A DNA stretch of 64,000 nt from Goekera deserti (GTDB taxonomy: Bacteria; Actinomycetota; Actinomycetes; Mycobacteriales; Geodermatophilaceae). The notes under the pieces were generated by a model. It was given only the letters and a program-made list of their open reading frames with translations. It was not told the DNA's origin and did not search any database. Where the stretch lies: assembly GCF_010685995.1 (NCBI RefSeq), contig NZ_JAAGWK010000030.1:1-64000 (forward strand), written 5' to 3'. Shown here piece by piece: positions 8,986-64,000 of the stretch. Position 1 is the stretch's first letter. Every line of letters begins with the position of its first letter. Position numbers and translations under genes: made by a program.

Positions 8986-10283
8986 CGGCGCAGTGTGGCA
9001 CCGCCCGCTGCCCGGGAGTGGCCGGCAGCGGCCCGAGTGTCGGCCGCTGCACCCGCCCCCTCGGCCGCGCCACCCGGCCGGCGGACGGCCAGCGCGCCCA
9101 GCGCGGCGGCCACCAGGCAGGCCACGGCGCCGAGGAGCAGCCCGGCCCGGCCACCGAACGCGTCGGACACCCAGCCGGCGAGCGGGCCACCGATCGGGGT
9201 CGAGCCGAGGAACGCCACCGCCCACAGCGCCATCACCCGGCCGCGCATCTGCGGGTCCGCGCTCAGCTGCAGGGTGCTGTTGCCGGTGGACAGGAACCCC
9301 ACGCTGACCGCGCCGACCGCGGCCATGGCCAGCAGCGCGAGCTCCAGCGTCGGCGCCAGCGCCGCGGCGGCCATGACCACGCCGAACGCCGCGGCCAGCG
9401 CCACCAGCGTGCGGATGCCGGTGCGGCCGCGGGCGGCCACCACCAGCCCGCCGACCACGGCACCGACGCCCATCGCCCCGGTCATGTAGCCGTAGGCCTG
9501 CGACCCGCCCCCGAAGGTGTCCTCGGCGAACACCGGCAGGGTCACCTGGAACTCGTAGGCCAGGCAGCCCACCAGCGCCATCATCAGCAGCGGCACGGCG
9601 ATCTCCCTGGTGCGCCGCACGTAGGCGAAGCCCTCGCGCAACTGCCCCTTCGCCCGGGCGGCCGGCACCGACGGCGTGAGCGTGGAGGTGTCCAGCAGCG
9701 CCAGCGACAGGACGACGGCGGCGAAGCTGACCGCGTTGACTCCGAAGCAGATGCCGGTGCCGCCGGCAGCGATCACGATGCCGGCGACGGCGGGCCCGAC
9801 CGCCCGGGCGACGTTGACGATCACCGAGTTCAGGCTGACCGCGTTGCGCAGGTGCTCCGGGCCGACCATCTCCAGGATGAAGGCCTGCCGGGCCGGGTTC
9901 TCGAAGGTGTTGTTCGCCCCGAGCAGGAAGGCAAGCAGGTACACCTGCCAGAGCGTCACCGCCCCGCTGAGGGTGAGCACGGCCAGCACCAGCGCCAGCA
10001 CGCCCATCGTCGCCTGCAACGCGATCATCAGCCGGCGCTTGTCCACCCGGTCGGCGACCACGCCGCCGTACGGGCCGAGCACCAGCACCGGCAGGGTCTG
10101 CAGCGCCACGACCAGGCCGACGGCAGTGGCCGAGCCGCTGAGCTGCAGCACCAGCCAGGACTGGGCCACGGTCTGCATCCACGTGCCGATCAGCGAGACG
10201 CACTGGCCGGCGGTGTAGCGGCGGTAGTTGGGGTTGTCCAGCGCGGCGAACGTCTGGTGCACCAGCACGCGGGGACTCGTCAC
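8982..10283 (-). CDS. MFS transporter (EntS/DHA3-like efflux)
   Basis: A 433-residue major facilitator permease with about 12 membrane helices. The opening NPNYRRYTAGQCVSLIGTWMQTVAQSWLVLQLSGSATAVG and the loop GGVVADRVDKRRLMI match the EntS/transmembrane-secretion-effector branch, which exports drugs or siderophores by proton antiport. The loop DKRRLM is the usual motif A between helices 2 and 3. GTG at 10283 overlaps the MarR stop by 4 bases, placing it in a MarR-transporter-membrane-protein operon. Such pairing usually means the MarR protein represses the pump until its ligand appears. A Pro/Ala/Gly-rich C-terminal tail is cytoplasmic. Substrate is unknown. Confidence 0.88.
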   Translation of the reverse strand: MTSPRVLVHQTFAALDNPNYRRYTAGQCVSLIGTWMQTVAQSWLVLQLSGSATAVGLVVALQTLPVLVLGPYGGVVADRVDKRRLMIALQATMGVLALVLAVLTLSGAVTLWQVYLLAFLLGANNTFENPARQAFILEMVGPEHLRNAVSLNSVIVNVARAVGPAVAGIVIAAGGTGICFGVNAVSFAAVVLSLALLDTSTLTPSVPAARAKGQLREGFAYVRRTREIAVPLLMMALVGCLAYEFQVTLPVFAEDTFGGGSQAYGYMTGAMGVGAVVGGLVVAARGRTGIRTLVALAAAFGVVMAAAALAPTLELALLAMAAVGAVSVGFLSTGNSTLQLSADPQMRGRVMALWAVAFLGSTPIGGPLAGWVSDAFGGRAGLLLGAVACLVAAALGALAVRRPGGAAEGAGAAADTRAAAGHSRAAGGATLRR

Positions 10284-49311: not shown

Positions 49312-50317
49312 ACTCCGTGGTGCAGGTGGCAGTGGCGGGTACGGCGGCGTACCGAGTCCGTCCGGGGAGGGCGCGTTCGGTACGTGATCTCAGCGGCAGG
49401 GTGGCCGACGTCCCAGCACGCCCGCCGGGACGTCAGGCGAGCACCACGCTGACATCCCGGCGAGCCTCGCCATCAGCTGTCAACGGCTATCCAATGTCCA
49501 TCCAACGGTTACGAAATGCCCCGCACTCGGCGGCAGGCCCGCACCGGATTCGGTGCGGGCCTGCCGTGGAGCTGTCGCTGATGCGCCGATCCGGCCGATC
49601 GCCTGTTAGCAGTCAGCACGGACGCGCTGTCCATCGGCGGTGCCAAGGTCGGCTTGCGGAGACCCGCGCGTGCGAGAGTTCCTGCTGACGGTGGACCGCG
49701 CCGGCTTTACGCTGACCTGTGGCATCGTGCCGTCGGGAGGAATCGAACCCCCCGCGTCGCCCATGCTGGACTGCCACGCCATGCGGCGTCGTCTGTGTAG
49801 CGCTGTGAACGCCGGCGCATCCAGGGACGGCACCTGGTACAACGGTACGGCCCCGGGAGTTCTTCCCGTCGCAAACGCGGAATCTCCCGCTGTGCGGCTG
49901 ATCCGCGAGCCGGAGCGGCCGCTGCGCGTGGCCGTCGACCTCCCGATGAGCAAGGTGTTCTGACCGCCACCGACGCCAATGCCTGACGGGCGCCGCCGAC
50001 GCCGGCTGGCGGCACTGCTGGGCGGGCACCGCCGACGAGCTGTGAGATGTGCGGCCGCCACCGTCAGCTGGCTGAAGGACGCCAACAAAGCCTCCGAGGC
50101 GATGTCCCGCAGGGTCGTCGTGCGGGCGCTGGAGTCGACCGTGCCACCCAGGGGCTGATCCTGTAGCCCCGCGGTCCACCGACGGCGACCCGGCGGGGGG
50201 GTGTTCATGGGTCGGCTCCTCGGTTGAGTCGTCCACCGGCCCGATGCCTGCCGCGACGACCCGCACCGTTCGGCCGCCACCGCGCTGCGCAGTCGCCCCC
50301 GGATCCCTGTCCACCGC
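49312..50317. other. Gene-poor scar between core genes and the defence island
   Basis: About 1 kb without a convincing intact gene. Base composition falls locally (for example 49480-49530 and 49840-49900), unlike the neighbours. On the minus strand ATG 50208 with GAGGAG upstream opens a 200-codon frame whose first 45 residues (TVDSSARTTTLRDIASEALLASFSQLTVAA) look protein-like, but the rest is low complexity and reads through the tRNA-like T-arm, so it is probably a truncated relic. Confidence 0.5.
49727..49756 (-). other. tRNA T-arm/acceptor-like fragment (possible attachment-site relic)
   Basis: On the minus strand GGGGG-TTCGATT-CCTCC forms a T-arm with the universal TTCGA loop, followed by CGACGGCA, like an acceptor 3' strand. 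An 8-bp complement (GACGGCAC on the plus strand at 49826-49833) exists, but 107 bases apart and without D or anticodon arms, so this is not an intact tRNA. Such 3'-tRNA fragments mark integration sites; here it borders the island. Confidence 0.4.
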
Positions 50318-50516: not shown

Positions 50517-53500
50517 CTACCAGTCCATCCCCGCGGCCTCGAGGCGGGCGATCTGCTCCGGGCTCAACTTGTCCCTCCTGCGCTCGTAGCGCCGACTGTT
50601 GACCCATTCGCCGAGGCGGAACCCGTCGCTCGCGCGGTATGCCCTGGGTACTCGGCCGTGGCCGTGCTCGTCGACGTACGCCCTCAGCGCAGCCAGCCCG
50701 CGGGCGAACTGGATCGTCAGCGGCTCCCAGACGAAGCCCAGCGCGTCGAGACGGGCGATCCGCTCCTGGGGCAGGCCGCTGTTCTTGCGCTCGGACCGGA
50801 GCCGGTTTGCCCAGCCGCCCAGATCGAAGCCGTCGGGAGTCCGGTACCCGGTCGGTACGTGCCGGTGGCCGTCCTGGGCGGGATAGGCCTCGAGCGCGGC
50901 GAGCCCGCGGCCGAAGTAGTCGGCCAGGGCATCCGACACGAACCCGAGCGCGTCGAGCGCGGCGATCTGCCCGTCGGTCAGCTTGCTCTGCCTGCGGTTC
51001 TGCCGGTGCAGGTGCACCCATCTGCCGAGGGCGAACCCGTCGGGGGTCCGATGCGTCTGGGGCACCCGGGCGTCGCCGTGCTCGTCCACGTACGCCTCGA
51101 GCGCGGCTAGCCCGCGGGCGAAGTCCTCCGCCGTCGGCTCCCAGATGAACCCGAGCGCGTCGAGCGCGGCGATCTGCTCGGCGGACAGTCGGCGCTCGCG
51201 GCGGTCGCTGCGGCGGTTGTTGACCCATGTGCCCAGGGCGAATCCGTCGATCTGGCACCCCCGCGGCACCCGGGTGTGGCCCTTCTCCGCCTTGAACGAC
51301 TTCAGCGCGATGAGCCCTCGGGCGAAGTCCGCGGCGACGGGGTCCCACTCGAAGCCCAGCGACTCCAGCGCCCGGATCTGCTCCTCGGGGAGGATGCCCT
51401 CCTTGTAGAACCGTCGTCGGTGGCTCAGCCAGCGGCCGAGGGGGAAGCGGTCGGCGGTCTGGTGCCCCTGCGGCACGCGGGCGTCGCCGTGCTCGGCCAC
51501 GTAGGCCTCGAGCGCGGCCAGCGCGCGGGCGACGTCGTCGGCGAGCGGCTCCCAGGCGAAGTCCAGGGCGTCCAGCACCGCGATCCGCTCGGCGGTCAGC
51601 CGGCCGTCGCGACGCTCCCGGCGACGGTTCTCCACCCAGGTGCCCAGGGGGTAGCCGTCGTCGGTCTTGAACTTGCTGGGGACCCGGGCGTGGCCCTTAC
51701 GGGCTACGAAGGCCTCGAGGATCCCCAGCCCGTACGCCCAGCCGGAGCCGATCCGCTGCACCGCCTGCAGCCAGATCCGGTCAGCCAGGGCAGCCGCGTC
51801 GGCGCCGGGAACGTCGACGACGATGCGACCGCTGCCCCTCCGACCGATGCGGCCGCTCCGCCCCAGCGCACGGCGCGCCTGCTCGATCTGGTCGGCCAGC
51901 ACGTCGTCGTGGTCGGCGAGGGCTGCCATCACGTCCCACACCGGCGCGTAGCCGTTGTCCGTGACGGCGGTCTGCTCGTCGTCGTCCTGAGTGACCGGGA
52001 CCGGGACGACGACGTAGCCGAGGTCCTTCCCGTCTGCGCGGCGCAGCACCCGCCCGACCGCCTGGACCACGTCGATCCGGGAGCGGCGGGGGTCGACGAA
52101 GACGACCGCGTCGAGTGCCGGCACGTCGACGCCCGCGGTCAGGCAGCGCGCGTTGGAGACGATCCGGACGGCCGGCTGACCGGGCCGCCCGGCACGCTCC
52201 AGCCGGGCCAGTGCGGCGGCCCGCACGTCGGCCGGTTGCTCGCCGGTGACGGTCTCTGCTGCGAGGTCGACGTGCAGCTCGGGCGGCGCCCAGGATCGGT
52301 GCGTGTCGAGCAGCCGGGTGAAGGTGCGGGCGCCGGCCACCCGGGAGTGGAAGGTGACGATGCGCCGCCGACCGTGGTCGCGAGCCAGGCGCAGTACGGC
52401 GAGTGCGGCGGCGAGGGTGCGCGCGTCGGTGGTGATCTCGGCGTCGACGAGCGCCCGGTGGTTGATTGCGGCTGCGGCCTTCTCGTCGGCGCCCAGCACG
52501 ACCAGCCGATAGTCCGATAGCAGACCGGCCGCCATCGCGGCGCCGAACGTCAGTCGGTAGGCGACTGGGCCGAACACCGCCGGGTCGTCCATCGAGGCCC
52601 ACTCGTCGGGGTCGGACGCGCGCAGGTGCGGGGCGACCAGCCGCGGCGTGGCGGTCGCGAACAGCCGCAGGTCGGCCCGGATCCGCTCACCGTCCAGCAC
52701 GGTGGCGAAGGCAGGTGAAGGGCGGCCGGCGAGGTAGTGGGCCTCGTCGGCGACGACGAGGTCGAAGGCGGCGTCGGTGAGCCGCTGGGCGGCGGCGATG
52801 CGCGGGGAGGACTGGTACGTGGCGAACACGGCCCGCGGCCGGTCGCCGTCCGGCATGTTCATGAAGGTCGCGATCGCGGCCGGCTCTGTCATGGTGGGCA
52901 CGCCGAGGTCCGCAGCGCTCACGGTCGGCTCGTCGAGGTCCTCGCCGGGCACTGGGGTTCCGACGGTGGCGTCCGAGCAGACCGCAATCGCGGCCATCAG
53001 GCCGCCGTACTGCCGGCGGTACTCGGCGATCAGCTGGCGCAGCAGCGACAGGGTCGGGGCGAGTACGAGCAGCCGGCCGGCCGGGAGGGCGAGCGCGATG
53101 CCGTGCGTGGTGATCGTCTTGCCGGTGCCGCAGGCCATCAGCAGCTGGGCGCGGTGGGCGCCGCCGGCCAGCAGCGTCTGGACGTGCCGCACGGCCTCCC
53201 ACTGGTACTCGTGCAGCGCGCGGGGCTCGAGCCGGTCCGGCGTGTCGGCGAGTGCGACCAGCACGCCGGCGTGGTCGGCGGGCCACCGGTCCCCCGCGTG
53301 CATCTCGATCTCGGCGGCGGCCCAGGTCACGAAGGGCTTGAGCATGCTCTGCCGGGCGAGCTCCGTGCGGGCGTGGCGGGTGAGAACTGCGTCCCCGAGC
53401 AGGATGAGCAGCCGGTCGGTGAACGGCCCGGCGGCCGACTTCGCCGCGAACGTCGCCAGCTCCTCCCAGCCCACGCCGACCGGCGAGCCGCCGGTCCGGA

Positions 53501-53777
53501 GCTTCACCTGGACCGCGGTGCAGCGGCCGTCGAGGTAGGTGGCGACCAAGTCGACGCCCAGGTCGACCCCGTTCTCCGGGGCATCGGGGTGGTCGATGTT
53601 GTACTCGCGGACCCAATCGGCCCACCGCTGCACGGTGCGCAGCCCGTCGCGCGTGGCGGGGCTACGCCACAGCGCGTACCGGGCAACGTCCTCGCCCTGG
53701 CGGCCGACGTCGTGCGTGGAGGAGCGGGTTAGCGACGCGAGCAGGTCGGCCAGGCTGACGGAGAGCGTGCGAGGCAT
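50517..53777 (-). CDS. PD-(D/E)XK nuclease-like / SF2 helicase with six helicase-associated repeats
   Basis: A 1086-residue multidomain protein. Residues of about 25-100 carry an Mrr-like nuclease pattern (RQGEDVARYALW, then GVDLGVDLVATYLDGRCTAVQVKLR, giving D...QxK). The SF2 helicase has Walker A MACGTGKT (about 214-221), DEAH in VVADEAHYL (about 343-348), SAT-like FATATPR, and motif VI QAVGRVLRR. From about 675 to the end there are six consecutive helicase-associated (HA, PF03457) repeats of about 68 residues, each with GHARVP / LGTWVxxRR / LxALGFxWEP, predicted DNA-binding. Members of this group are predicted phage-defence or restriction proteins. It is divergent from the ATPase-Wadjet set. 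Promoter shared within 53778-54214. Confidence 0.9.
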   Translation of the reverse strand: MPRTLSVSLADLLASLTRSSTHDVGRQGEDVARYALWRSPATRDGLRTVQRWADWVREYNIDHPDAPENGVDLGVDLVATYLDGRCTAVQVKLRTGGSPVGVGWEELATFAAKSAAGPFTDRLLILLGDAVLTRHARTELARQSMLKPFVTWAAAEIEMHAGDRWPADHAGVLVALADTPDRLEPRALHEYQWEAVRHVQTLLAGGAHRAQLLMACGTGKTITTHGIALALPAGRLLVLAPTLSLLRQLIAEYRRQYGGLMAAIAVCSDATVGTPVPGEDLDEPTVSAADLGVPTMTEPAAIATFMNMPDGDRPRAVFATYQSSPRIAAAQRLTDAAFDLVVADEAHYLAGRPSPAFATVLDGERIRADLRLFATATPRLVAPHLRASDPDEWASMDDPAVFGPVAYRLTFGAAMAAGLLSDYRLVVLGADEKAAAAINHRALVDAEITTDARTLAAALAVLRLARDHGRRRIVTFHSRVAGARTFTRLLDTHRSWAPPELHVDLAAETVTGEQPADVRAAALARLERAGRPGQPAVRIVSNARCLTAGVDVPALDAVVFVDPRRSRIDVVQAVGRVLRRADGKDLGYVVVPVPVTQDDDEQTAVTDNGYAPVWDVMAALADHDDVLADQIEQARRALGRSGRIGRRGSGRIVVDVPGADAAALADRIWLQAVQRIGSGWAYGLGILEAFVARKGHARVPSKFKTDDGYPLGTWVENRRRERRDGRLTAERIAVLDALDFAWEPLADDVARALAALEAYVAEHGDARVPQGHQTADRFPLGRWLSHRRRFYKEGILPEEQIRALESLGFEWDPVAADFARGLIALKSFKAEKGHTRVPRGCQIDGFALGTWVNNRRSDRRERRLSAEQIAALDALGFIWEPTAEDFARGLAALEAYVDEHGDARVPQTHRTPDGFALGRWVHLHRQNRRQSKLTDGQIAALDALGFVSDALADYFGRGLAALEAYPAQDGHRHVPTGYRTPDGFDLGGWANRLRSERKNSGLPQERIARLDALGFVWEPLTIQFARGLAALRAYVDEHGHGRVPRAYRASDGFRLGEWVNSRRYERRRDKLSPEQIARLEAAGMDW

Positions 53778-54214: not shown

Positions 54215-54524
54215 GTGCGCCCTTCCTACCTCGACGAGCCTGCCCGGTTCGTCCCCATCGACTGGCACCAGCTGCGCCGCGCCGCCGGCCACAACCGGCA
54301 GGTCAAGGCAGAGCAGTACGTCACCGATGTCGCCGAAGAGCTCCTCCATGCGCGGCAAGAAGCACCCGAACAGCGCCAAGCTGACGAAGGACAAGGACGG
54401 CAAGCGTCACGTCGTCGACCCCAGCGACGACCTGTTCGCCGGCGGGGCCCAGGCCCTGGAGGCCCTGTTCGGCAAGAAGGACGACGTCGACGACGAGGGC
54501 CTCGCGCAGATGAGGGCCTTCTGA
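54215..54524 (+). CDS. Small charged protein heading the island operon, needs +1 frame change
   Basis: GTG at 54215 (GGGAG at good spacing) opens RPSYLDEPARFVPIDWHQLRRAAGHNRQVKAEQYVTDVAEELL. At about 54347 the good coding frame shifts by one base (CTC-C-ATG) to MRGKKHPNSAKLTKDKDGKRHVVDPSDDLFAGGAQALEALFGKKDDVDDEG, ending in TGA 54522-54524. Joined, this is about 102 residues, basic then acidic. Alternatively ATG 54348 starts a separate 58-residue gene and the first part is a relic. The stop overlaps the ATPase ATG (TGATG). No family recognised. Conservation of the joined form would settle it. Confidence 0.55.
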
Positions 54525-55277
54525 TGCCCCTCGCCGGCCTGGACGAGGCCCGCATCGTCCGCACCCCCGCCACCGGGCGCATCGAGGACATGGCCGCCCT
54601 CGTCGTCCCCCGCCACGAGATCGCCCTGATCCACGGTCCGCACGGCACCGGCAAGCGCACCGCGCTGAACTCCTGGCTCGCCGGTCAGGAGCTGCCGGTC
54701 GCCCGGCCGACCCTGGCCGGCAACGAGAGCGGCCGCAAGCTGCTGTCGCTGCTGCACGACCAGGTCATAGCCCCGGACGATCTCCCCGAGCGCAACCTGC
54801 AGGACGACCTGGTCGAGGTCCTGGCCGACCAGCCGCGGATCGTCGTCGTCGAGCACACCGAGCGGCTCACCGCCGAGGCCGCCGGGCAGCTGGAGTGGCT
54901 GCACGGCCGGCCCGGGCAGCACGCCGTCTGCATCCTCGTCGGCGGCCCGCAGGCTGCGAAGGCGATCGGCAAGGACCCACTACTGTGGGAGGCCGTCTGC
55001 GCCACCGTCGAGGTCACCCCGCTCAAGGACGACGACCTGCTGCGCGCGGTGCGATATATGCACGACCTGTTCGCCGGCGCGGACACCATCGTGCTGGCCA
55101 AGATCGACACCCAGCTCTGCCGCGGCGTCCTCGGTCGCTGGGCGCGCTACCTGCAGCACGCCCTCCACCTGCGCGACCGCCTCCTCGCGGCCGGCCGCGA
55201 GCCGCCCGTGCTCGACCACCTTCGCGAGCGCGGTAACCGCCACCATGCCCGCCACCCTCCTGGCCAAGCGCAAGTGA
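54524..55277 (+). CDS. TniB/TnsC-like AAA ATPase, apparent +1 frameshift near its end
   Basis: ATG at 54524 (TGATG overlap) opens an ATPase of about 250 residues. The P-loop GPHGTGKRT is at 38-46 in the context RHEIALIHGPHGTGKRTALNSWLAG, as in TniB/TnsC/ExeA-type transposition or defence ATPases. The Walker B-like strand PRIVVVEHTERLT has Glu110 but lacks the usual preceding Asp. At about 55213 the coding frame shifts by one base (CAC-C-TTC) to FASAVTATMPATLLAKRK and TGA 55275-55277, which overlaps the next GTG. Without the shift the frame would run into the next gene as a 643-residue fusion through a stretch of atypical codons (RERGNRHHARHPPGQAQ), which I think is wrong. No transposase or TniQ gene is adjacent. 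Confidence 0.72.
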
Positions 55278-56455
55278 CCGTGTCCCCCGCCCTCGTCAGC
55301 GTCGACGTCACGGGCGCCCCGGTGACCATCCCGGCCCACCCGCCACTGGTCACCGGGGCCCTGTGGGTCGAGGCCCGACCCGACCTGCGCCGCCTGCACG
55401 TGCTCGCCGGTGACCTGCTCGCCGCCCTCGGCAAGCGCCGCGACCTGGCCGGCAAGGGCCGCAACGAGCAGGACGACGTCCGCCACGCCGTCGCCTGGAC
55501 GACCGCACACGGCATCACCGACCTCGTGGTCACCGACGGCCAGCGGCTGCACCCGGTGATCCTGCGCGGCTTGATCACCTTCGCCGGTGACGTCGGCGCC
55601 CGACTGTGGGTGGTGCACCGGCCGCCGCGGAAGGACGCGTTCGTTCGCGCGCTGACCCGCCGCGGCGCCACCGACGCCCAGCTGACGGACGTCCCCTCGC
55701 CGGCCGACGCACCGCAGGCCCCGGTGGCAGAGCAGGTCGAGCTGCCCGCGGTCCCCGCCGAGGAGTTCACGACCTTCCGTCACGCCTGCCGGCAGACGCT
55801 GCCCGCGGAGGACGCCACCCGCGTCGACGCGCACTTCACCACCACCGCAGCCCGCTGCGACGCCGCTCTGCGCCACGCCGGCGCAACACGGGCCACCGTC
55901 GCCGACCTGCTGCACCGGCTGCTCAACCCCGTCCCCGGCGACGCCCAGCTCACCGTCGAACTGCGAGCCCTGCAGACCGCCGCCTGGCACCACGACCTCT
56001 ACGTCAAGATAGACTTCCCGCGGCTGCTGCACAGCGAGGAACGCCCCCGCATCCCCACCGCCGAGGCCGACGCCGCGCTGGCCGCCTACCGCCAGCCGCA
56101 CCGGACGATCACCGTCGCCCTCACCCGGGCCGGCCGCGACCTCACCGACATGGGCGCCGTCCGCCTCGCCGACGCCGCCGACGACGGCTCCGCGGTCGAT
56201 GTCGCCGGCGAGCGCACTACCGTCGGCCCACACACCGCCCGCGCCGTGCTCGCGCAGCGGCAGCTCCGTCTCGCCGCCGGCGCCGGCCCCGCCGACCCGC
56301 TGCTCCCCTACAGCCCGAAGGCGCTGGCGAAGGCGCTCACCGAGGCCGCCACCGACCTCGGGGTCCACGTCCACGGCCGCCGCGCCGAACGCACTCGCGA
56401 CCACACCGAGGGCACCCTGCGCGCCCTGGGCGTCACCGTGGAGACTTTGCCGTGA
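55274..56455 (+). CDS. Unrecognised island protein, ~393 aa
   Basis: GTG at 55274 overlaps the ATPase stop (GTGA). I recognise no family. The N-terminal third is strand-rich (SPALVSVDVTGAPVTIPAHPPLVTGALWVEARPDLRRLHVLAGDLLAALGKRR). A central segment DLVVTDGQRLHPVILRGLITFAGDVGARLWVVHRPPRKDAFVRAL resembles the Walker B/sensor half of a P-loop ATPase but has no P-loop of its own. The C-terminal two-thirds are helical, with a possible DNA-binding end (PYSPKALAKALTEAATDLGVHVHGRRAERTRDH). Tight coupling to the ATPase and XRE genes suggests they act as one complex. In position it corresponds to the target-selector partner of TniB-type ATPases, but homology to TniQ is not visible. Confidence 0.75.
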   Translation: MTVSPALVSVDVTGAPVTIPAHPPLVTGALWVEARPDLRRLHVLAGDLLAALGKRRDLAGKGRNEQDDVRHAVAWTTAHGITDLVVTDGQRLHPVILRGLITFAGDVGARLWVVHRPPRKDAFVRALTRRGATDAQLTDVPSPADAPQAPVAEQVELPAVPAEEFTTFRHACRQTLPAEDATRVDAHFTTTAARCDAALRHAGATRATVADLLHRLLNPVPGDAQLTVELRALQTAAWHHDLYVKIDFPRLLHSEERPRIPTAEADAALAAYRQPHRTITVALTRAGRDLTDMGAVRLADAADDGSAVDVAGERTTVGPHTARAVLAQRQLRLAAGAGPADPLLPYSPKALAKALTEAATDLGVHVHGRRAERTRDHTEGTLRALGVTVETLP

Positions 56456-57075
56456 TCGACCCCGACGCGCTGCGCCGCATCCGCACCGACCGCGGCCTGT
56501 CCCAGCGCCGCCTCGCCACCGCGGCCGGCGTCGACCCGCTCACCGTCAAGCGGATCGAGGGCGGCGCCGACGCCGGGGACCTACCCCTGCGCGTGCTGGA
56601 CCATCTCGCCGGCTGTCTCGCGGTCCCGGTGCAGGACCTGCTCCGCACTCGCACTGCCGCCGCGCCCGAGGACCTGGTGCAGGCCGTCGGCGCCGCGCTG
56701 CTGGCCCACGGCCGCACCACCATCACCCGCCTGGCCGGCGCGCTGGCCGCCACGGTCGACGACGCCACCCACGCTGTCGCCGGGCTGGACGCCCACCTGG
56801 CCGCCGCCGGCATGTCCCTCGCTCGGCGCCACGACGAGATCTGGCTGGTGCCGCTGGTCGACACCGCGAGGACCGCCCCGGCCGACCGGCCGCTCACCCT
56901 CGCCGAGGCGCGGCTGCTGCGCCGCATCCACCGCGGCGAGGACGTCCGCCGTGTCCTGTCCGGCCCAGACCGCCAGTTCGTGCTCCCCGCGCTGCTTCGT
57001 CGGGGCCTCGTCGTCGACCACGGCGCCGGCCCCGTCGTGACGCCACACGTCGCCGCGTCGCTGGCCACCGCGTGA
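56452..57075 (+). CDS. XRE-family helix-turn-helix protein with C-terminal winged region
   Basis: GTG at 56452 overlaps the previous stop (GTGA). The N-terminal 60 residues form an XRE/Cro helix-turn-helix (LRRIRTDRGLSQRRLATAAGVDPLTVKRIEGGADAGDLPLRVLDHLAGCLAVPVQDLL). The C-terminal 140 residues contain two helix-rich units (VQAVGAALLAHGRTTITRLAGALAATVDDATHAVAGLDAHLAAAGMSL and LTLAEARLLRRIHRGEDVRRVLSGPDRQFVLPALLRRGLVVD) that resemble winged-helix folds. It may regulate the island or act as the DNA-recognition part of the ATPase complex. 207 residues. Confidence 0.85.
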   Translation: MIDPDALRRIRTDRGLSQRRLATAAGVDPLTVKRIEGGADAGDLPLRVLDHLAGCLAVPVQDLLRTRTAAAPEDLVQAVGAALLAHGRTTITRLAGALAATVDDATHAVAGLDAHLAAAGMSLARRHDEIWLVPLVDTARTAPADRPLTLAEARLLRRIHRGEDVRRVLSGPDRQFVLPALLRRGLVVDHGAGPVVTPHVAASLATA

Positions 57076-57502: not shown

Positions 57503-59104
57503 ATGCGGGATGCGAGGGATGTCGTGGACACCGAGGCAGCCGGGGGCGGCGACGGCCCTGACGGCCACCCGGACGAAGGGGCTTCCACCGGCGACGCACT
57601 GGACCGACTCAACCTCTACCGGTACGCGACCGCCGACGACCCGCAGATCCGCGAGCAGTACATCGCGATCATGCGGCTGTTCACCGAGACGCTGCTGACC
57701 GACCTGTCCGCCGCCGAAGTCGCCGAGGCCCTCGCCGCCCGGTCTCTCCCAGTCCCGCAGGCCGATGTCGAGGAACGCTGCCGGTCACTGGAGGGGTGGG
57801 GCAACCTGGTGCGGTCCGTGCGGGACGCGCGTGTCGCGACCGTCGCCGAGTTCCTGCACTCCCGATCCCGCTACCAGGTGTCCAAGCTCGGCGGCCGGGT
57901 CCACCGCCAGGTCGACGAACTGCTCCGGGCCACCACCGGCGTCCGCGACGTCGCCCGGGAGATGCTCGGCGGGATGGTCGGCAACCTCGACCGCACCCTG
58001 ACCATGCTCACCGGACCCGAGCCGCTTGACGCCGACGCCCTCGCCGCCGAGGTCACCGCCGTGTTCGCCGCGCAGCGGCTGTTCAACGAGAGCGCCACCG
58101 ACTTCTACGCCTACCTCAACGGGGTCCTGGCCCGGTACGACCTCGTGGGCGAGGAGTACGCCGGGTTCAAGGACCTGCTGCTGGGCTACGTCGACCTGAT
58201 CACCGCCGACGTCGCCCGGCACGCCCCGGCGGTCACCACCCGGCTGACCGCGCTCGACCCGCACCTGGACACGCTGCTCGCCGCGCTGGACGCCCTGCCG
58301 ACGATGACCAACGCCGACGGCACCGCCGGCGAGCGGCTGCCCGGCCGCACCCGGGCCGACTGGGACGAGTTCGCCGCCTGGTACGACGGCCGCGCCGGCC
58401 GGTCCGGCCCGCAGCAGCTGCGCACCGCCGCCGAGCAGGCGCTCGGCCAGCTGCTGACCAACGCCAAGCGGATGCTGTCGGCGTCCGGCACCGGCGTGTC
58501 CCGCCGCAACGACCTGCTCAAGCTCGCCGGCTGGTTCGCCCAAGCCGACACCGATACCGCGCACCGGCTCTACGCCGCCGCGTACGGCGCCTATCCCGCC
58601 CGTCACCTCGTCCTCGGCCCCGAGGAGGTCGGCCCGCGGGCCGGCGCGACGACGTCCTGGTGGGAGGCCGAGCCGGTCGAGGTGCCGGTCTCGCTGCGCG
58701 AACGCGGCGACCGCGCCGCGCGCGGCCGGACCTCCCGGGTGCCCGACACCGCCGGCGACCGGGAGGAGCTGCTCGCCCAGGCCCGCGCCGAGGCCGAGCA
58801 CGCCGCCGCGGCCGCCGCCGAACTCATCGCAGCCGGCACCCTGCACGGCCGGCGCGTCCACCCGGCCGCCCGCGACCTCGTCCTCGACCGGCTCGGCGAC
58901 CTGTTCGCCGCCGGTCAGGACGCCGACGAGCCGCTGGAGTGGACCGACACCGACCTCGGCTTCACCCTGCTCGCCACCCCCAGCCCCGGTCAGCCGACCC
59001 GGATCAGCGCCGAAGACGGCGACCTGATCGTCGACGACCTGACGCTCACCATCACGCCGCTGGAGGACCAGCAGCAGCGCACCGGGACGGAGACCCCGCG
59101 ATGA
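57503..59104 (+). CDS. jetA: Wadjet JetA (TIGR02677 / DUF2397)
   Basis: A protein of about 533 residues matching the TIGR02677/DUF2397 family: LNLYRYATADDPQIREQYIAIMRLFTETLLTDLSAAEVAEAL at the start, then SLEGWGNLVRSVRDARVATVAEFLHSRSRYQVSKLGGRVHRQVDELL, and an Asp-rich C-terminal winged region. JetA is the kleisin of the SMC-like Wadjet complex, which extrudes and cleaves circular plasmid DNA. DUF2397 plus DUF2398 marks the type II variant (from memory of the published classification). ATG 57503 is used; GTG 57524 has a better GAGGGA. The stop overlaps jetB (ATGA). Confidence 0.88.
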   Translation: MRDARDVVDTEAAGGGDGPDGHPDEGASTGDALDRLNLYRYATADDPQIREQYIAIMRLFTETLLTDLSAAEVAEALAARSLPVPQADVEERCRSLEGWGNLVRSVRDARVATVAEFLHSRSRYQVSKLGGRVHRQVDELLRATTGVRDVAREMLGGMVGNLDRTLTMLTGPEPLDADALAAEVTAVFAAQRLFNESATDFYAYLNGVLARYDLVGEEYAGFKDLLLGYVDLITADVARHAPAVTTRLTALDPHLDTLLAALDALPTMTNADGTAGERLPGRTRADWDEFAAWYDGRAGRSGPQQLRTAAEQALGQLLTNAKRMLSASGTGVSRRNDLLKLAGWFAQADTDTAHRLYAAAYGAYPARHLVLGPEEVGPRAGATTSWWEAEPVEVPVSLRERGDRAARGRTSRVPDTAGDREELLAQARAEAEHAAAAAAELIAAGTLHGRRVHPAARDLVLDRLGDLFAAGQDADEPLEWTDTDLGFTLLATPSPGQPTRISAEDGDLIVDDLTLTITPLEDQQQRTGTETPR

Positions 59105-60321
59105 CCGCGCCGCAGCCCCCGCGCGAGGTGACCGAACGCCGCGACGCCGCCCGCGCGCTGCTGCACAGCCCGTTCCTCACCGACGGCGACGCGCTGCCCC
59201 TGGTGCGGCGGCACGCGGCCGCACTGAAGACGACGTTCGCTACCTGGCTGGGCTACACCCTCTACGTCGAGCCGGCCTTCGCCCGGCTGATCAAGACCCC
59301 GCTGACCGCCGACGCGCCGACCCGACCCGCCCGGCGCACCGCCGGCGGCGAGTTCACGCCCCGCACCTACGTGTACCTGACGCTGCTGTCCGCGGCCCTG
59401 CTCGCCCCGCAGACCGGCGAGCAGATCCTGGTGTCCGCCCTGGTCGAGCAGGTCCGGGCCGACGCCGCCACCGCGCAGGTGACCCTGGACGACTCCTACG
59501 CCGACCAGCGGCACCTGCTGGCCGCGTTCCGGCAGCTGATCGGCTGGGGCGTGCTCGAGGAGACCGCGGGCAGCGTCGCCGAGTGGAGTGAACGGCGCGA
59601 GGAGGCGCTGCTGACTATCCACCGGCAGATGCTGCCGCACCTGCTCGCCCGCCCACTGACCTACGACGACCCGATGGCCCTGCTCAGCGCCGCCCCTGAC
59701 GTGGTCGAACAACCCCGGCGCAGCCTGCGGCGCAAGCTGGTGGAGAACCCACTGGTCCGACGCGAGGACCTCACCGACGCCGAACGTGACGTGCTCTCCC
59801 GCGAGCGCACCGAGCTCACCCGCGTCCTGGACGAGACGTTCGGGCTGATGCTCGAGGTCCGCGCCGAGGGCGCGCTCGCCTACGACCCCGACAGCGAGGT
59901 TACCGACCTGGAGTTCCCCGGCGCCTCGACGGTGCGGCAGGCCGCGCTGCTCACCGTCGACGAGCTGCTCGCCAGGCACACCCCGAAGTCCGGGTCCACC
60001 GCCGACGTCGGGGGCCGCGCCGTCCCTGGCGTGCTCTGCCCCTGGCCGGAGGTCGGGGACGTCATCACCGGGCTGTCCACCCGGCATGGCAAGGCGTGGG
60101 GCGCCGAGTACGTCACCGACCCGGCCCGGCTGCAGGCCGAGGTTGTCGCCACGCTCACCGCGTTCGGGCTCGCCACCGGCACCGACGCCGGCCTGGTGCT
60201 GCACCCCGCTGCCGCCCGGCACCGCCCCACCGTCTCGCAGACACCGCCCCGGACCCGCGCGCAGACCCGCCTCATCGGCGACCCCGACCAGGTATCCCTC
60301 TTCGACCCGGAGACGCCTTGA
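59101..60321 (+). CDS. jetB: Wadjet JetB (TIGR02678 / DUF2398)
   Basis: A 406-residue protein of the TIGR02678/DUF2398 family: ERRDAARALLHSPFLTDGDALPLVRRHAAALKTTFATWLGYTLYVEPAFARLIK, then FTPRTYVYLTLLSAALLAPQTGEQILVSALVEQVRADA and GWGVLEE. It is the KITE-type (MukE-like) winged-helix subunit that binds JetA. ATG at 59101 overlaps jetA by 4 bases. The extreme C-terminus reads QVSLFDPETP; Q-x-S-L-F-D resembles a beta-clamp-binding peptide. Confidence 0.9.
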   Translation: MTAPQPPREVTERRDAARALLHSPFLTDGDALPLVRRHAAALKTTFATWLGYTLYVEPAFARLIKTPLTADAPTRPARRTAGGEFTPRTYVYLTLLSAALLAPQTGEQILVSALVEQVRADAATAQVTLDDSYADQRHLLAAFRQLIGWGVLEETAGSVAEWSERREEALLTIHRQMLPHLLARPLTYDDPMALLSAAPDVVEQPRRSLRRKLVENPLVRREDLTDAERDVLSRERTELTRVLDETFGLMLEVRAEGALAYDPDSEVTDLEFPGASTVRQAALLTVDELLARHTPKSGSTADVGGRAVPGVLCPWPEVGDVITGLSTRHGKAWGAEYVTDPARLQAEVVATLTAFGLATGTDAGLVLHPAAARHRPTVSQTPPRTRAQTRLIGDPDQVSLFDPETP

Positions 60322-63300
60322 CCGCCACCCTGCCCACGCCCGCCGAGGACCTCGGTCAGGCGCCGCTGAAGCGGTACGACAGCCGGTGGCGGCTGCACCG
60401 CGGCGGCATCGTCAACGTGTGGTTCTACTACGACGAGCAGTTCACCTTCTCCGGTGGCCGGGTCATCTGGCGCGGCACCAACGGCGCCGGGAAGAGCCGT
60501 GCCCTGGAGATGCTGTTGCCTTTCCTGCTCGATGCTGATCGACGGAACATCGACGCGACCGGGGCGAAGAAGGTCCGCCTCGAGGACCTCATGAGCCACG
60601 GCGCCGGGGAGCAGACCAACCGGGTCGGCTACCTGTGGCTGGAACTGGAAGGCGAGGCCGACGACGGCAGCCGCGAGTACCTGACGCTCGGAGCGTTCAT
60701 CCGGTTCTCGAAGGCCACCGCCGAGGCGAAGGCCTGGTACTTCGTCACCCCGCTGCGGGTCGGCGCCGACCTGCCGCTGCTCGGGGAGGACCGCGAGCCG
60801 CTGTCCCGGGAGCGGCTCACCGAGCTCGTCGGCGCCGAGCGCATCACCGAGAAGGCCGAGACGCACCGCGACCGCGTCCGCGCCGACGTGTTCGGGCTCA
60901 CCGGCGAGGCCGGCAAGCAGCGGTACGCCGGCCTGCTGCAGCTGCTGCACGTGCTGCGCAACCCCGACGTCGGCAACCGCATCGAGGCCGGCGAACTGCC
61001 GAAGCTCGTCTCCGCCGCGCTGCCCCCGCTGTCCGACGTCGCCCTGAGCAACGCCGGCCAGCAGCTCGACGCGCTGTCGGAGACCCGCGCCACCCAGCAG
61101 GCCCTCGAGGAGGACGCCGGTCACCTGGCCGGGTTCCTCGACAGCTACCGGCGCTACGTCGCCGGGGTACTTCTCACCGCCGGTGGTGCGGCGCGGGAGG
61201 CGGCCGGCTCCGCCCGGGCCGCCGCCGCGCACGCCCGCACCGAGACCGGCACTCACGAGAAGCTCATCGGCGAGCACGCCGCCGCGGCGGCCGAGCTGAC
61301 CCGGCTGACCGCCCGCGACCGCGAGCTGGACGGCACCATCCTGGGTATCCGCACCTCGCAGGAGTACAAGGACGCCACGCAGCTCGACGACGTGGAACGG
61401 CGGGTGGCTGCGCTGCACACAGCCGCCGCCGGCGCGCTGACCGCCGCCGGATCCGCCCGCGAGCACGAGGCACATCAGGTTCAAGCGGCAGACGGCCGGG
61501 CCACCGAGGTCGCCCAGGCCGCCGACCGGGCCGCCACGACGCTGCGCGAGGCGCAGACCGGCCTGCAGGCCTCCGGGATGGACACCGACGTCCTGCCGGC
61601 CGCGGCCGCGGCGCAGATCGGTGAGGACACCCCGCTCAGCGAGCCGGTTCGCACCGACGTCGACACCGACCCGCAGCCCGCAGCCCGTCCAGTCCCGCAC
61701 CGGCTCACCGTCACCCCGACCGACCCGCGTGCCGCGGCGGAGGCGGCCCGGCGGGTCCAGCAGGCGGCCGACCGCCGCGCGGGGCAGGCCGGCACCCGCC
61801 TGGCGACCGCCCAGGACCTGCAGCGCCGGCTGACCCAGGTCGAACGTGCCGAGGACAACGCCGAGGCCGCCGACCGAACCGCGGAGATCTCCGCCGACGA
61901 CGCGGCGACCGCCGCCGACCTCCGGGACACGGTCGCGGCCACGCTGGCCGCCGAGTGGCGCCGGTGGACCGGCGACGCCACCACCACGACTCTCCTCGGC
62001 GACGTGAGCTGGGCGGACACCGCCGCTGGGCCGCTGCTGGCCGACGCCGAGGCGCTCACCGGCGACGGGGGCGCGATCGACCTCACCGACCTCGACCGGG
62101 TCGCCGCCGAGGCCGCCGAACCGGCCCGGGAGCGCCTGGCCGACGAGCGCGCCGACCTGCGCCGCCGCCAGGAGCAGGACGACCAGCGGCGGACGGACCT
62201 CGACATCGAGGCCCGCGGGCTGCGCGCGGAGCGGGACCCCGAGCCGCTGAGCCCGCCGTGGCAGACCGCCGCCCCGGACGACAGCATGCCCCTGTGGCAG
62301 GCGCTGGACTTCACCGATCCCGACCTGCCCGACATCCACAAGGGCGGGATCGAAGGGGCGCTGCACGCCGCCGGCCTGCTCACCGCGCACCTGTCGCCGA
62401 CCGGCACCGTGACCGCCGCCGCCGCCGGGCAGGTGCTGCTCGCCCCCGCCGGCCCCCGCGCCGCCCGGCCGCTGTCCCAGCTGCTCACCGCGGACCCCGA
62501 GTCTCCGGCCGAACCCACCCTCGTCGCAGACGTGCTGGCACGCATCGCCCTCGACGACGCCACCCATCCGGTGTGGGTCGGCACCGACGGCTCCTGGGGC
62601 AACGGCCCGCTGCGCGGGCACCACCCGGCCGCCGCCGCCCGGCACATCGGCGCCGCCGCGCGGGCCGCGTCCCGCGCCGCCCGGCTGGCCGAGATCACCG
62701 CCGAGGTCGACCGCCTCGACGAGGCCGACGCCGCCCGGGCCGCCGAACGCGGCGCCCTGCGGGAGCGCGAGCAGGCGCTCACCGCGCACCTGCGCACCGC
62801 ACCCCGCAGCGGACCGCTCACCCAGGCCCGCGCGGCCGCCGTCACCGCGGCCACCCGAGCAGACCGCGACGAGCAGGCCGCCGTGACCGCCCGCACGGCC
62901 GCAACCCGGCTGCGCGACGCGTGGGCGGCCGCCCACGCCCAGCACGTCGAGGCCTGCCGCGCGTTCGGCCTGCCCACCGACACCGACGCGCTCGCGACCA
63001 TCCGCCGTGACGCCACCGCCGCCGCCGGCGCGTGTGGCCGACTCGCCGGCAGGCTGGCCGAGCTCGGCGCCGCAGTGGACCGGCACGCCGCGGCGCTCAC
63101 CCTCGCCGCGACGGCGACCGGCAAGCGCCGCGCCGCGGAGGCAGGCGCCGAGAATGAGTGGGGTGTCTGGCGCGCCGCCGACGCGGAGGTCGCCGCGCTG
63201 CGCGCCAGCGTGGGGGCGGAGGCCACCGCGATCCGCGCCCGGCTGCAGGAGGCCGAGACCGAGGCCAAGCAGGTGAAGAGCGCCCTCGGCGCCGCCGTCA

Positions 63301-64000
63301 CCGTCGAAGGTGATCTCGGCCGCCAGGCATCGGCCGCGGAGGAGCGGGTCCGGCACGCCGAGGAGTCGGCGGCGACCGCCCGCGCCGCGCTGGCCGCCGC
63401 CGTCGATCGGCTGCGGGCCATCACCGCGCTGCGTGGTCTGGCCGCCGCCGTCACCGACGGGCAGACGCTGCCCGACCTGCCCCCGGCCGACCCCGTCACG
63501 ATCGCCGCCGACGACGTCGACGCCGCCGTCCGGCGGCTGGAGTCAGCCGTGAACGGCCGCGGGGACGACGTCGACACCACCGCCATCCTCCGCGCGCAGC
63601 AGAACCTCGAACGTGACCTGCAGGGCACCTTCGACGTGTTCGCCACCGACGTCGGGGGCGTCTGGCTGTTCGACCTGGTCGACGCCACCGGCACGCACAC
63701 CATCGCCTCCGGCCACGACCTGCTGCAGCGCCGCACCACCGAGGGCCGCACCGCGCTGACCGAGCGCGAACGGACGGTGTTCACCGACTTCGTCCTCGGT
63801 GGCGTCGCCGAGGAGCTACGGGACCGGCTGAAGCAGGCCCGCGAGCTGATCGACGCGATGAATGACAGCCTCGACACCATCCGCACGTCGCACGGCATCG
63901 GCGTCCGCGTCAACTGGAACCTCGCGGTCGCCGACGACGACCCGCTCGCCCGGATCCGACAGCTGGTCACCCTCTCCGGGGAGGTCCGCCGCCCCGAGCA
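60318..64000 (+). CDS. jetC: Wadjet JetC SMC-like ATPase (TIGR02680), 3' end outside window
   Basis: TTG at 60318 overlaps the jetB stop (TTGA). About 1227 residues are visible. The N-terminal head has WRLHRGGIVNVWFYYDEQFTFSGGRVIWRGTNGAGKSRALEMLLPFLLD with Walker A GTNGAGKS at 53-60. A very long Ala/Arg/Glu-rich coiled coil follows (about 260-1090), interrupted by a globular hinge-like part (about 640-800, PPWQTAAPDDSMPLWQALDF). The second head half begins GRTALTERERTVFTDFVLGGVAEELRDRLKQARELIDAMNDSL; signature and Walker B lie past the edge. JetC is the SMC motor of the anti-plasmid complex. jetD (nuclease, DUF2399/TIGR02679) should follow. Confidence 0.92.
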   Translation, partial: MTATLPTPAEDLGQAPLKRYDSRWRLHRGGIVNVWFYYDEQFTFSGGRVIWRGTNGAGKSRALEMLLPFLLDADRRNIDATGAKKVRLEDLMSHGAGEQTNRVGYLWLELEGEADDGSREYLTLGAFIRFSKATAEAKAWYFVTPLRVGADLPLLGEDREPLSRERLTELVGAERITEKAETHRDRVRADVFGLTGEAGKQRYAGLLQLLHVLRNPDVGNRIEAGELPKLVSAALPPLSDVALSNAGQQLDALSETRATQQALEEDAGHLAGFLDSYRRYVAGVLLTAGGAAREAAGSARAAAAHARTETGTHEKLIGEHAAAAAELTRLTARDRELDGTILGIRTSQEYKDATQLDDVERRVAALHTAAAGALTAAGSAREHEAHQVQAADGRATEVAQAADRAATTLREAQTGLQASGMDTDVLPAAAAAQIGEDTPLSEPVRTDVDTDPQPAARPVPHRLTVTPTDPRAAAEAARRVQQAADRRAGQAGTRLATAQDLQRRLTQVERAEDNAEAADRTAEISADDAATAADLRDTVAATLAAEWRRWTGDATTTTLLGDVSWADTAAGPLLADAEALTGDGGAIDLTDLDRVAAEAAEPARERLADERADLRRRQEQDDQRRTDLDIEARGLRAERDPEPLSPPWQTAAPDDSMPLWQALDFTDPDLPDIHKGGIEGALHAAGLLTAHLSPTGTVTAAAAGQVLLAPAGPRAARPLSQLLTADPESPAEPTLVADVLARIALDDATHPVWVGTDGSWGNGPLRGHHPAAAARHIGAAARAASRAARLAEITAEVDRLDEADAARAAERGALREREQALTAHLRTAPRSGPLTQARAAAVTAATRADRDEQAAVTARTAATRLRDAWAAAHAQHVEACRAFGLPTDTDALATIRRDATAAAGACGRLAGRLAELGAAVDRHAAALTLAATATGKRRAAEAGAENEWGVWRAADAEVAALRASVGAEATAIRARLQEAETEAKQVKSALGAAVTVEGDLGRQASAAEERVRHAEESAATARAALAAAVDRLRAITALRGLAAAVTDGQTLPDLPPADPVTIAADDVDAAVRRLESAVNGRGDDVDTTAILRAQQNLERDLQGTFDVFATDVGGVWLFDLVDATGTHTIASGHDLLQRRTTEGRTALTERERTVFTDFVLGGVAEELRDRLKQARELIDAMNDSLDTIRTSHGIGVRVNWNLAVADDDPLARIRQLVTLSGEVRRPE

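Follow-up and report, generated by a model that had tools for sequence, protein, structure and literature searches.

The stretch of DNA considered here (hereafter the window) comprises 64,000 nucleotides from the actinobacterium Goekera deserti (contig NZ_JAAGWK010000030.1, positions 1 to 64,000). It contains the larger part of a transposon that extends past its last base, and the features of this locus are listed below, with contig bases given for those lying beyond the window:

49420..49472, - strand: remnant of the right end of another, older element (TGGCGAGGCTCGCCGGGATGTC.. on this strand)
49473..49477: 5-bp target-site duplication, TCAGC (GCTGA on the - strand)
49478..49521, + strand: transposon left end (TGTCAACGGCTATCCAATGTCC..), with two 19-bp sites at 22 bp spacing
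50517..53777, - strand: nuclease-helicase (Mrr_cat_2, ResIII, Helicase_C and six HA repeats), cargo between the mapped ends
54342..54524, + strand: C-terminal remnant of the TnsB transposase, recognized with a profile of intact relatives
54524..55216, + strand: TnsC/TniB-like AAA+ ATPase, Walker A GPHGTGKRT
55274..56455, + strand: protein X, 393 aa, intact
56452..57075, + strand: XRE-family HTH protein (HTH_31/HTH_3 matches), intact, last gene of the transposition operon
57524..59104, + strand: Wadjet JetA, cargo (JetA2 model)
59101..60321, + strand: Wadjet JetB, cargo (JetB2 model)
60318..64000, + strand: Wadjet JetC, cargo, ending at contig base 64517
contig bases 64514-65806: Wadjet JetD, cargo
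contig bases 65850-67808 (G000:C6): cargo gene of 652 aa without a Pfam match, following Wadjet
contig bases ~68075-68167: transposon right end, between the 652-aa gene and nrdJ
contig bases 68168-71041, - strand: nrdJ (B12-dependent ribonucleotide reductase), starting 4.2 kb past the window

The element spans 18,690 bp (18.7 kb), from position 49478 to contig base 68167, 4.2 kb beyond the window, and is bounded by inverted ends with repeated transposase sites of 19 bp spaced 21-22 bp apart, the right end (TGTGAACGGCCAGGAAGTGTCC) being inverted relative to the left. A comparison of the left junction (..CCTCGCCA / TCAGC / TGTCAACGGCTATCCAATGTCC..) with the right one (..CCTGGCCGTTCACA / TCAGC / TGCAGCC..) reveals the 5-bp duplication, whose second copy, at contig base 68168-68172, contains the nrdJ stop codon. 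The left-end consensus of this element is common to L115, L117, L118, L121, L122 and L123, and in G465, the genome of locus L002, the left end lies at L115:19283. The GCTGA duplication is seen in the window's genome, in G465 and in G024, where it is perfect and constitutes an independent case drawn from a second family of ends. In element-bearing genomes TG.. directly follows the nrdJ stop codon and leads into an array of ~21-bp sites, which in the family of the window's element read TCGGWCAGCAATGTCCC. The right end of the window's genome is 85% identical over 81 non-coding bp to that of the Nocardioides locus L004, and this sequence is absent from relatives with empty sites, including L059, L061, L064, L066 and L069-L071, which have other sequence there.

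Two other accounts of these non-coding segments were discarded. That the right-end repeats are host sequence or the end of an unrelated IS was ruled out, as empty nrdJ sites do not have the repeats and most of the dispersed copies proved to be left-end/GCTGA/right-end junctions of stacked elements. The hairpin after the right end was also rejected as the host's nrdJ terminator, given that it moves with copies elsewhere, though empty sites have similar hairpins.

All ten loci of the TnsA-bearing kind with an assembled flank are adjacent to nrdJ (the window's own, L002, L003, L004, L012, L014, L015, L135, L136 and L137), a count that spans several actinobacterial classes and includes decayed copies with TnsA or TnsB lost or reduced to fragments (the window, L014, L136 and L137). 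In each of them the XRE side of the cassette faces the nrdJ 3' end. In genomes of ~5 Mb such constant adjacency is far beyond chance. The older remnant at 49420-49472, stacked behind the window's element, matches an end family found after nrdJ in L075, L076, L062 and L072; in G024 the stacking order of the two end families is reversed relative to the window, and L117, L118 and L123 display left-end/GCTGA/right-end junctions. These stacked ends and junctions indicate that nrdJ is a repeatedly used landing site, with newer elements pushing older ones outward. Many of the remnants at nrdJ retain just the XRE gene or just the ends. Six loci (L058, L060, L062, L068, L072 and L076) have no cassette, yet carry other families of ~21-bp sites flush at the nrdJ stop codon, which suggests that several element families share this site. 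A search of the open-access literature for work joining Tn7-like elements and nrdJ returned no match. An nrdJ-targeted element explains the gathering of Wadjet and other defense genes beside nrdJ.

A first-pass annotation, made from the sequence alone, had described the genes ahead of Wadjet as a co-directional unit of four (a small protein, a TniB-like ATPase, a third protein and an XRE protein) without a transposase. The run of genes is real, but it represents the surviving control end of a Tn7-like element and not a free-standing operon, and two of its four members are damaged. The supposed small protein is not a single reading frame: its segment 54342-54497 matches positions 439-490 of the 495-position TnsB profile (E=2.5e-9), i.e. 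the last ~50 residues of the transposase, while the open stretch just before it (54215-54349, MRPSYLDEPARFVPIDWHQLRR..) is in a different frame, has no family match and is perhaps part of a deletion junction. A transposase is hence represented in the window after all, and in relatives the corresponding genes are directly preceded by those for a TnsA-like nuclease and TnsB. About 88% of TnsB and the entire TnsA are missing from the element, and neither TnsA nor another copy of TnsB was found in the 4.84 Mb genome. Because of these losses we infer that the element is, at present, almost certainly immobile in this strain without help.

The TGATG overlap between the first two genes (TGA 54522-54524, ATG 54524) was correctly read, and the second gene does encode a P-loop ATPase of the TniB/TnsC kind; however, it falls short of the TGA at 55275, as its homology to intact relatives ends at 55216, near which a frameshift has cost it the last ~18 residues. 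The TnsC frame continues into X, giving one merged ORF of 643 aa (54524-56455). Of two proposed GTGA overlaps, that of X with the XRE gene stands. The other, of the ATPase with X, is out of frame in the window but present in L002, where TnsC ends at 10004 and X starts at 10001.

Close relatives of X occur in two Blastococcus genomes and in Nocardioides guangzhouensis, in a gene run of TnsA-like nuclease, TnsB, TnsC, X and XRE, and intact cassettes of this composition are present in L002, L003, L004, L015 and L135. X relatives were recovered from 14 of 394 genomes sampled from the class and from 13 of 396 sampled from the phylum, other classes included (L135, L136 and L137); no viral contigs with X relatives were found. 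The order TnsC-X-XRE recurs co-directionally in many genomes, which places it above chance. The first-pass annotation was right to see a possible link of these genes to transposition: in relatives the trio recurs with TnsA and TnsB. The TnsB of the relatives combines rve with a Mu-transpos_C match (E=1.5e-8), and its family matches the solved TnsB of a CAST (7svw, E=5.2e-15); TnsC is operonic with TnsB and retains Walker A in nearly all of them. Upstream of TnsB a conserved PD-(D/E)XK-like protein is encoded in L002-L004, L011, L012, L015 and L135; this TnsA-like protein matches PDDEXK_1 (1e-5 in L003 and 3e-4 in L015) and no TnsA model. Other cassettes (L013, L039-L043 and L047) have no TnsA, and no nrdJ adjoins them within the stretch examined; X and XRE are accordingly not tied to this gene alone.

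Some individual loci depart from the common pattern. A second nrdJ element (L014:6845-10252) has lost TnsB and kept TnsA, TnsC, a broken X and XRE along with CBASS cargo, a decay that parallels that of the window's element. In L047 (7914-9529) two tandem TnsC-like genes precede X, the second without a recognizable Walker A. L045 (G392:C1:1-16000, and also at the far end of that contig and at both ends of C2) has an X-like gene together with TnsB and TnsC genes, 6.5 kb from the ends of two contigs, one resembling a linear chromosome and the other a linear plasmid.

Our reading of the locus, to which we assign a probability of roughly 85%, is that it is what is left of a site-specific, now inactive Tn7-like transposon inserted directly behind the nrdJ stop codon, carrying Wadjet and the nuclease-helicase as cargo, and belonging to a kind in which X and XRE, instead of TniQ/TnsD, would find the nrdJ 3' end and load TnsC. 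What had the appearance of a new defense operon is thereby reinterpreted as a dead copy of a variant Tn7-like element.

That the third protein, of ~393 aa, has no named family and that the fourth is an XRE protein were both confirmed. X yielded no family match in Pfam, PADLOC, NCBIfam or PHROG, with just a weak AAA_22 match in three of 15 diverse members (best E=0.0018). An AlphaFold2 model of X, of low confidence (mean pLDDT 62.5, four-sequence alignment), retrieved TnsC/MuB proteins as all of its top seven Foldseek matches (TnsC of Tn7, ShTnsC and MuB, probability up to 1.00), and TnsC/MuB chains took ranks 1-14 with a second structural aligner; the superposition on ShTnsC has a VIA Z of 13.1 at 3.1 Å over 130 residues (model residues 3-139). 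Comparison by hhalign of X residues 28-201 with residues 60-209 of TnsC from the same elements gave P=3.4e-4, and a search of the X profile against PDB sequences had ShTnsC as best match, at E=1 only. The P-loop motif GxxxxGK[ST] is absent from all 18 X proteins inspected. Fold prediction supports assigning residues 3-139 to the AAA+ fold of TnsC/MuB, with the P-loop missing, and X is predicted to be TnsC-like without being a working TnsC. When the C-terminal part was modeled alone (pLDDT 65.8, likewise of low confidence with a four-sequence alignment), its 27 top-ranking Foldseek matches were all tyrosine recombinases (probability up to 0.95), with structural Z of at most 7. At the sequence level, comparing profiles against three genuine tyrosine recombinases and against PDB sequences detected no recombinase domain, and no Tyr is found near the C-terminus in four close X sequences. 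Going by the model, residues ~146-393 are possibly an inactive tyrosine-recombinase-like domain. In L012 X is fused to XRE in one protein.

Faure et al. describe TniQ/TnsD as ubiquitous across the Tn7 branch (PMC10293859). A search with the PF06527 HMM, which may miss very diverged versions of TniQ, gave no match in G000, G020, G024, G032, G055, G465, G463 and most other genomes; in G143 and G439 the same search detected TniQ, on contigs other than that of the cassette. No description of a natural TniQ-free family was found in the open-access literature, and Benler et al. report a TnsB clade dominated by actinobacteria that is without a characterized member (PMC8649781). We see about even odds that the cassettes constitute a widespread actinobacterial Tn7-like branch without TniQ, in which a TnsC copy devoid of its ATP site, joined to a captured DNA-binding domain of inactive, recombinase-like type, acts together with XRE to home to the nrdJ stop codon, the elements stacking in arrays. 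In intact relatives TnsA and TnsB would excise and join the element, and TnsC would couple them to the target by relaying the target signal. X and XRE would recognize the conserved nrdJ 3' end and load TnsC there in place of TniQ/TnsD, with X perhaps entering or capping the TnsC assembly via its ATP-site-less domain. The gene content, the ends and the insertion site are observed, whereas the DNA-binding half of X, the target-selector role of X and XRE and the relay itself are predictions. If such a TniQ-free TnsABC family exists, a duplicated TnsC can serve to build anew the link that joins TnsC to its target. The family would also supply a compact tool for site-specific insertion in actinobacteria, whose safe site lies behind a strongly conserved gene.

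The cassettes resemble Tn7 and Tn7-like elements (TnsABC with TniQ/TnsD) in several respects: a TnsA-like nuclease, TnsB and TnsC are encoded in this order, TnsB belongs to the family of the solved CAST TnsB, the ends hold arrays of ~21-bp sites, integration behind the 3' end of a conserved gene duplicates 5 bp, and the cargo includes defense genes. They differ in that no TniQ/TnsD was found and a P-loop-less TnsC-like X and XRE are present instead, and in targeting nrdJ, flush with its stop codon, rather than glmS, tRNA or comM. The pairing of an rve/Mu-transpos_C transposase with an AAA+ partner is also seen in Tn5053 (TniABQR) and phage Mu (MuA/MuB); Tn5053 has TniQ and a resolvase, and Mu is not known to have either a fixed target site or a TnsA-like nuclease. 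The possible use by X of an inactive tyrosine-recombinase-like domain as target-site reader recalls TnsF of Tn6022; however, Tn6022 also has TniQ, and TnsF bears N-terminal zinc fingers where X has the TnsC-like AAA+ domain (PMC10293859).

The division of labor could also be a different one, with XRE alone serving as a TnsD-like DNA reader and X contributing only structurally to the TnsC ring, or with X being an extremely diverged TniQ. XRE does carry a recognized DNA-binding domain, the AAA+ half of X could fit in a TnsC ring, and TniQ can be highly divergent (PMC10293859). We nevertheless consider these variants somewhat unlikely, since 15 X members gave no Pfam match to TniQ at E up to 10, the N-terminal fold of X is that of AAA+ and not of TniQ, and its C-terminal half most resembles recombinases.

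Loss of TnsA and TnsB need not entail loss of function if the host keeps TnsC-X-XRE as a domesticated module, for instance in blocking nrdJ insertions or regulating nearby genes. On this account one would point to X and XRE, still intact in the window despite transposase loss, to the merging of the TnsC and X frames into one ORF, and to L014, which likewise lacks TnsB and yet has TnsC, XRE and part of X next to nrdJ. Against this, TnsC is frameshifted in the window and X is broken in L014, stacked elements attest that new insertions at nrdJ do occur, many nrdJ remnants have XRE only or ends only, and the dN/dS of X (0.48-0.56, uninformative as a test) gives no sign of special constraint. We regard domestication as improbable, a decaying remnant being the simpler reading. 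The proposal that these genes form a new anti-phage or anti-plasmid defense system or a Wadjet accessory module, prompted by their adjoining Wadjet and the nuclease-helicase, is barely credible, as they recur with TnsA/TnsB inside mapped transposon ends that also enclose Wadjet, their cargo differs between relatives and neither TnsC nor X has a PADLOC match.

The cargo of the transposon family comprises two kinds of Wadjet (type II-like in the window, DUF3375-type in G024 and L002), a CBASS pair (SMODS and S_4TM, in L014), restriction genes (L003, L011 and L015) and an OLD-like ATPase. This variation between relatives implies that Wadjet is a passenger and not a partner, and Benler et al. list it among the cargo of Tn7-like elements (PMC8649781). 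Next to TnsA, L002 (4842-7109) and L003 (4800-7039) encode an E2/E1-like fusion (ThiF, with a weak UQ_con match), preceded in both by a low-complexity protein of 121-122 aa with a C-terminal glycine (..GEHPRPVG); the two are possibly a ubiquitin-like conjugation pair carried as cargo.
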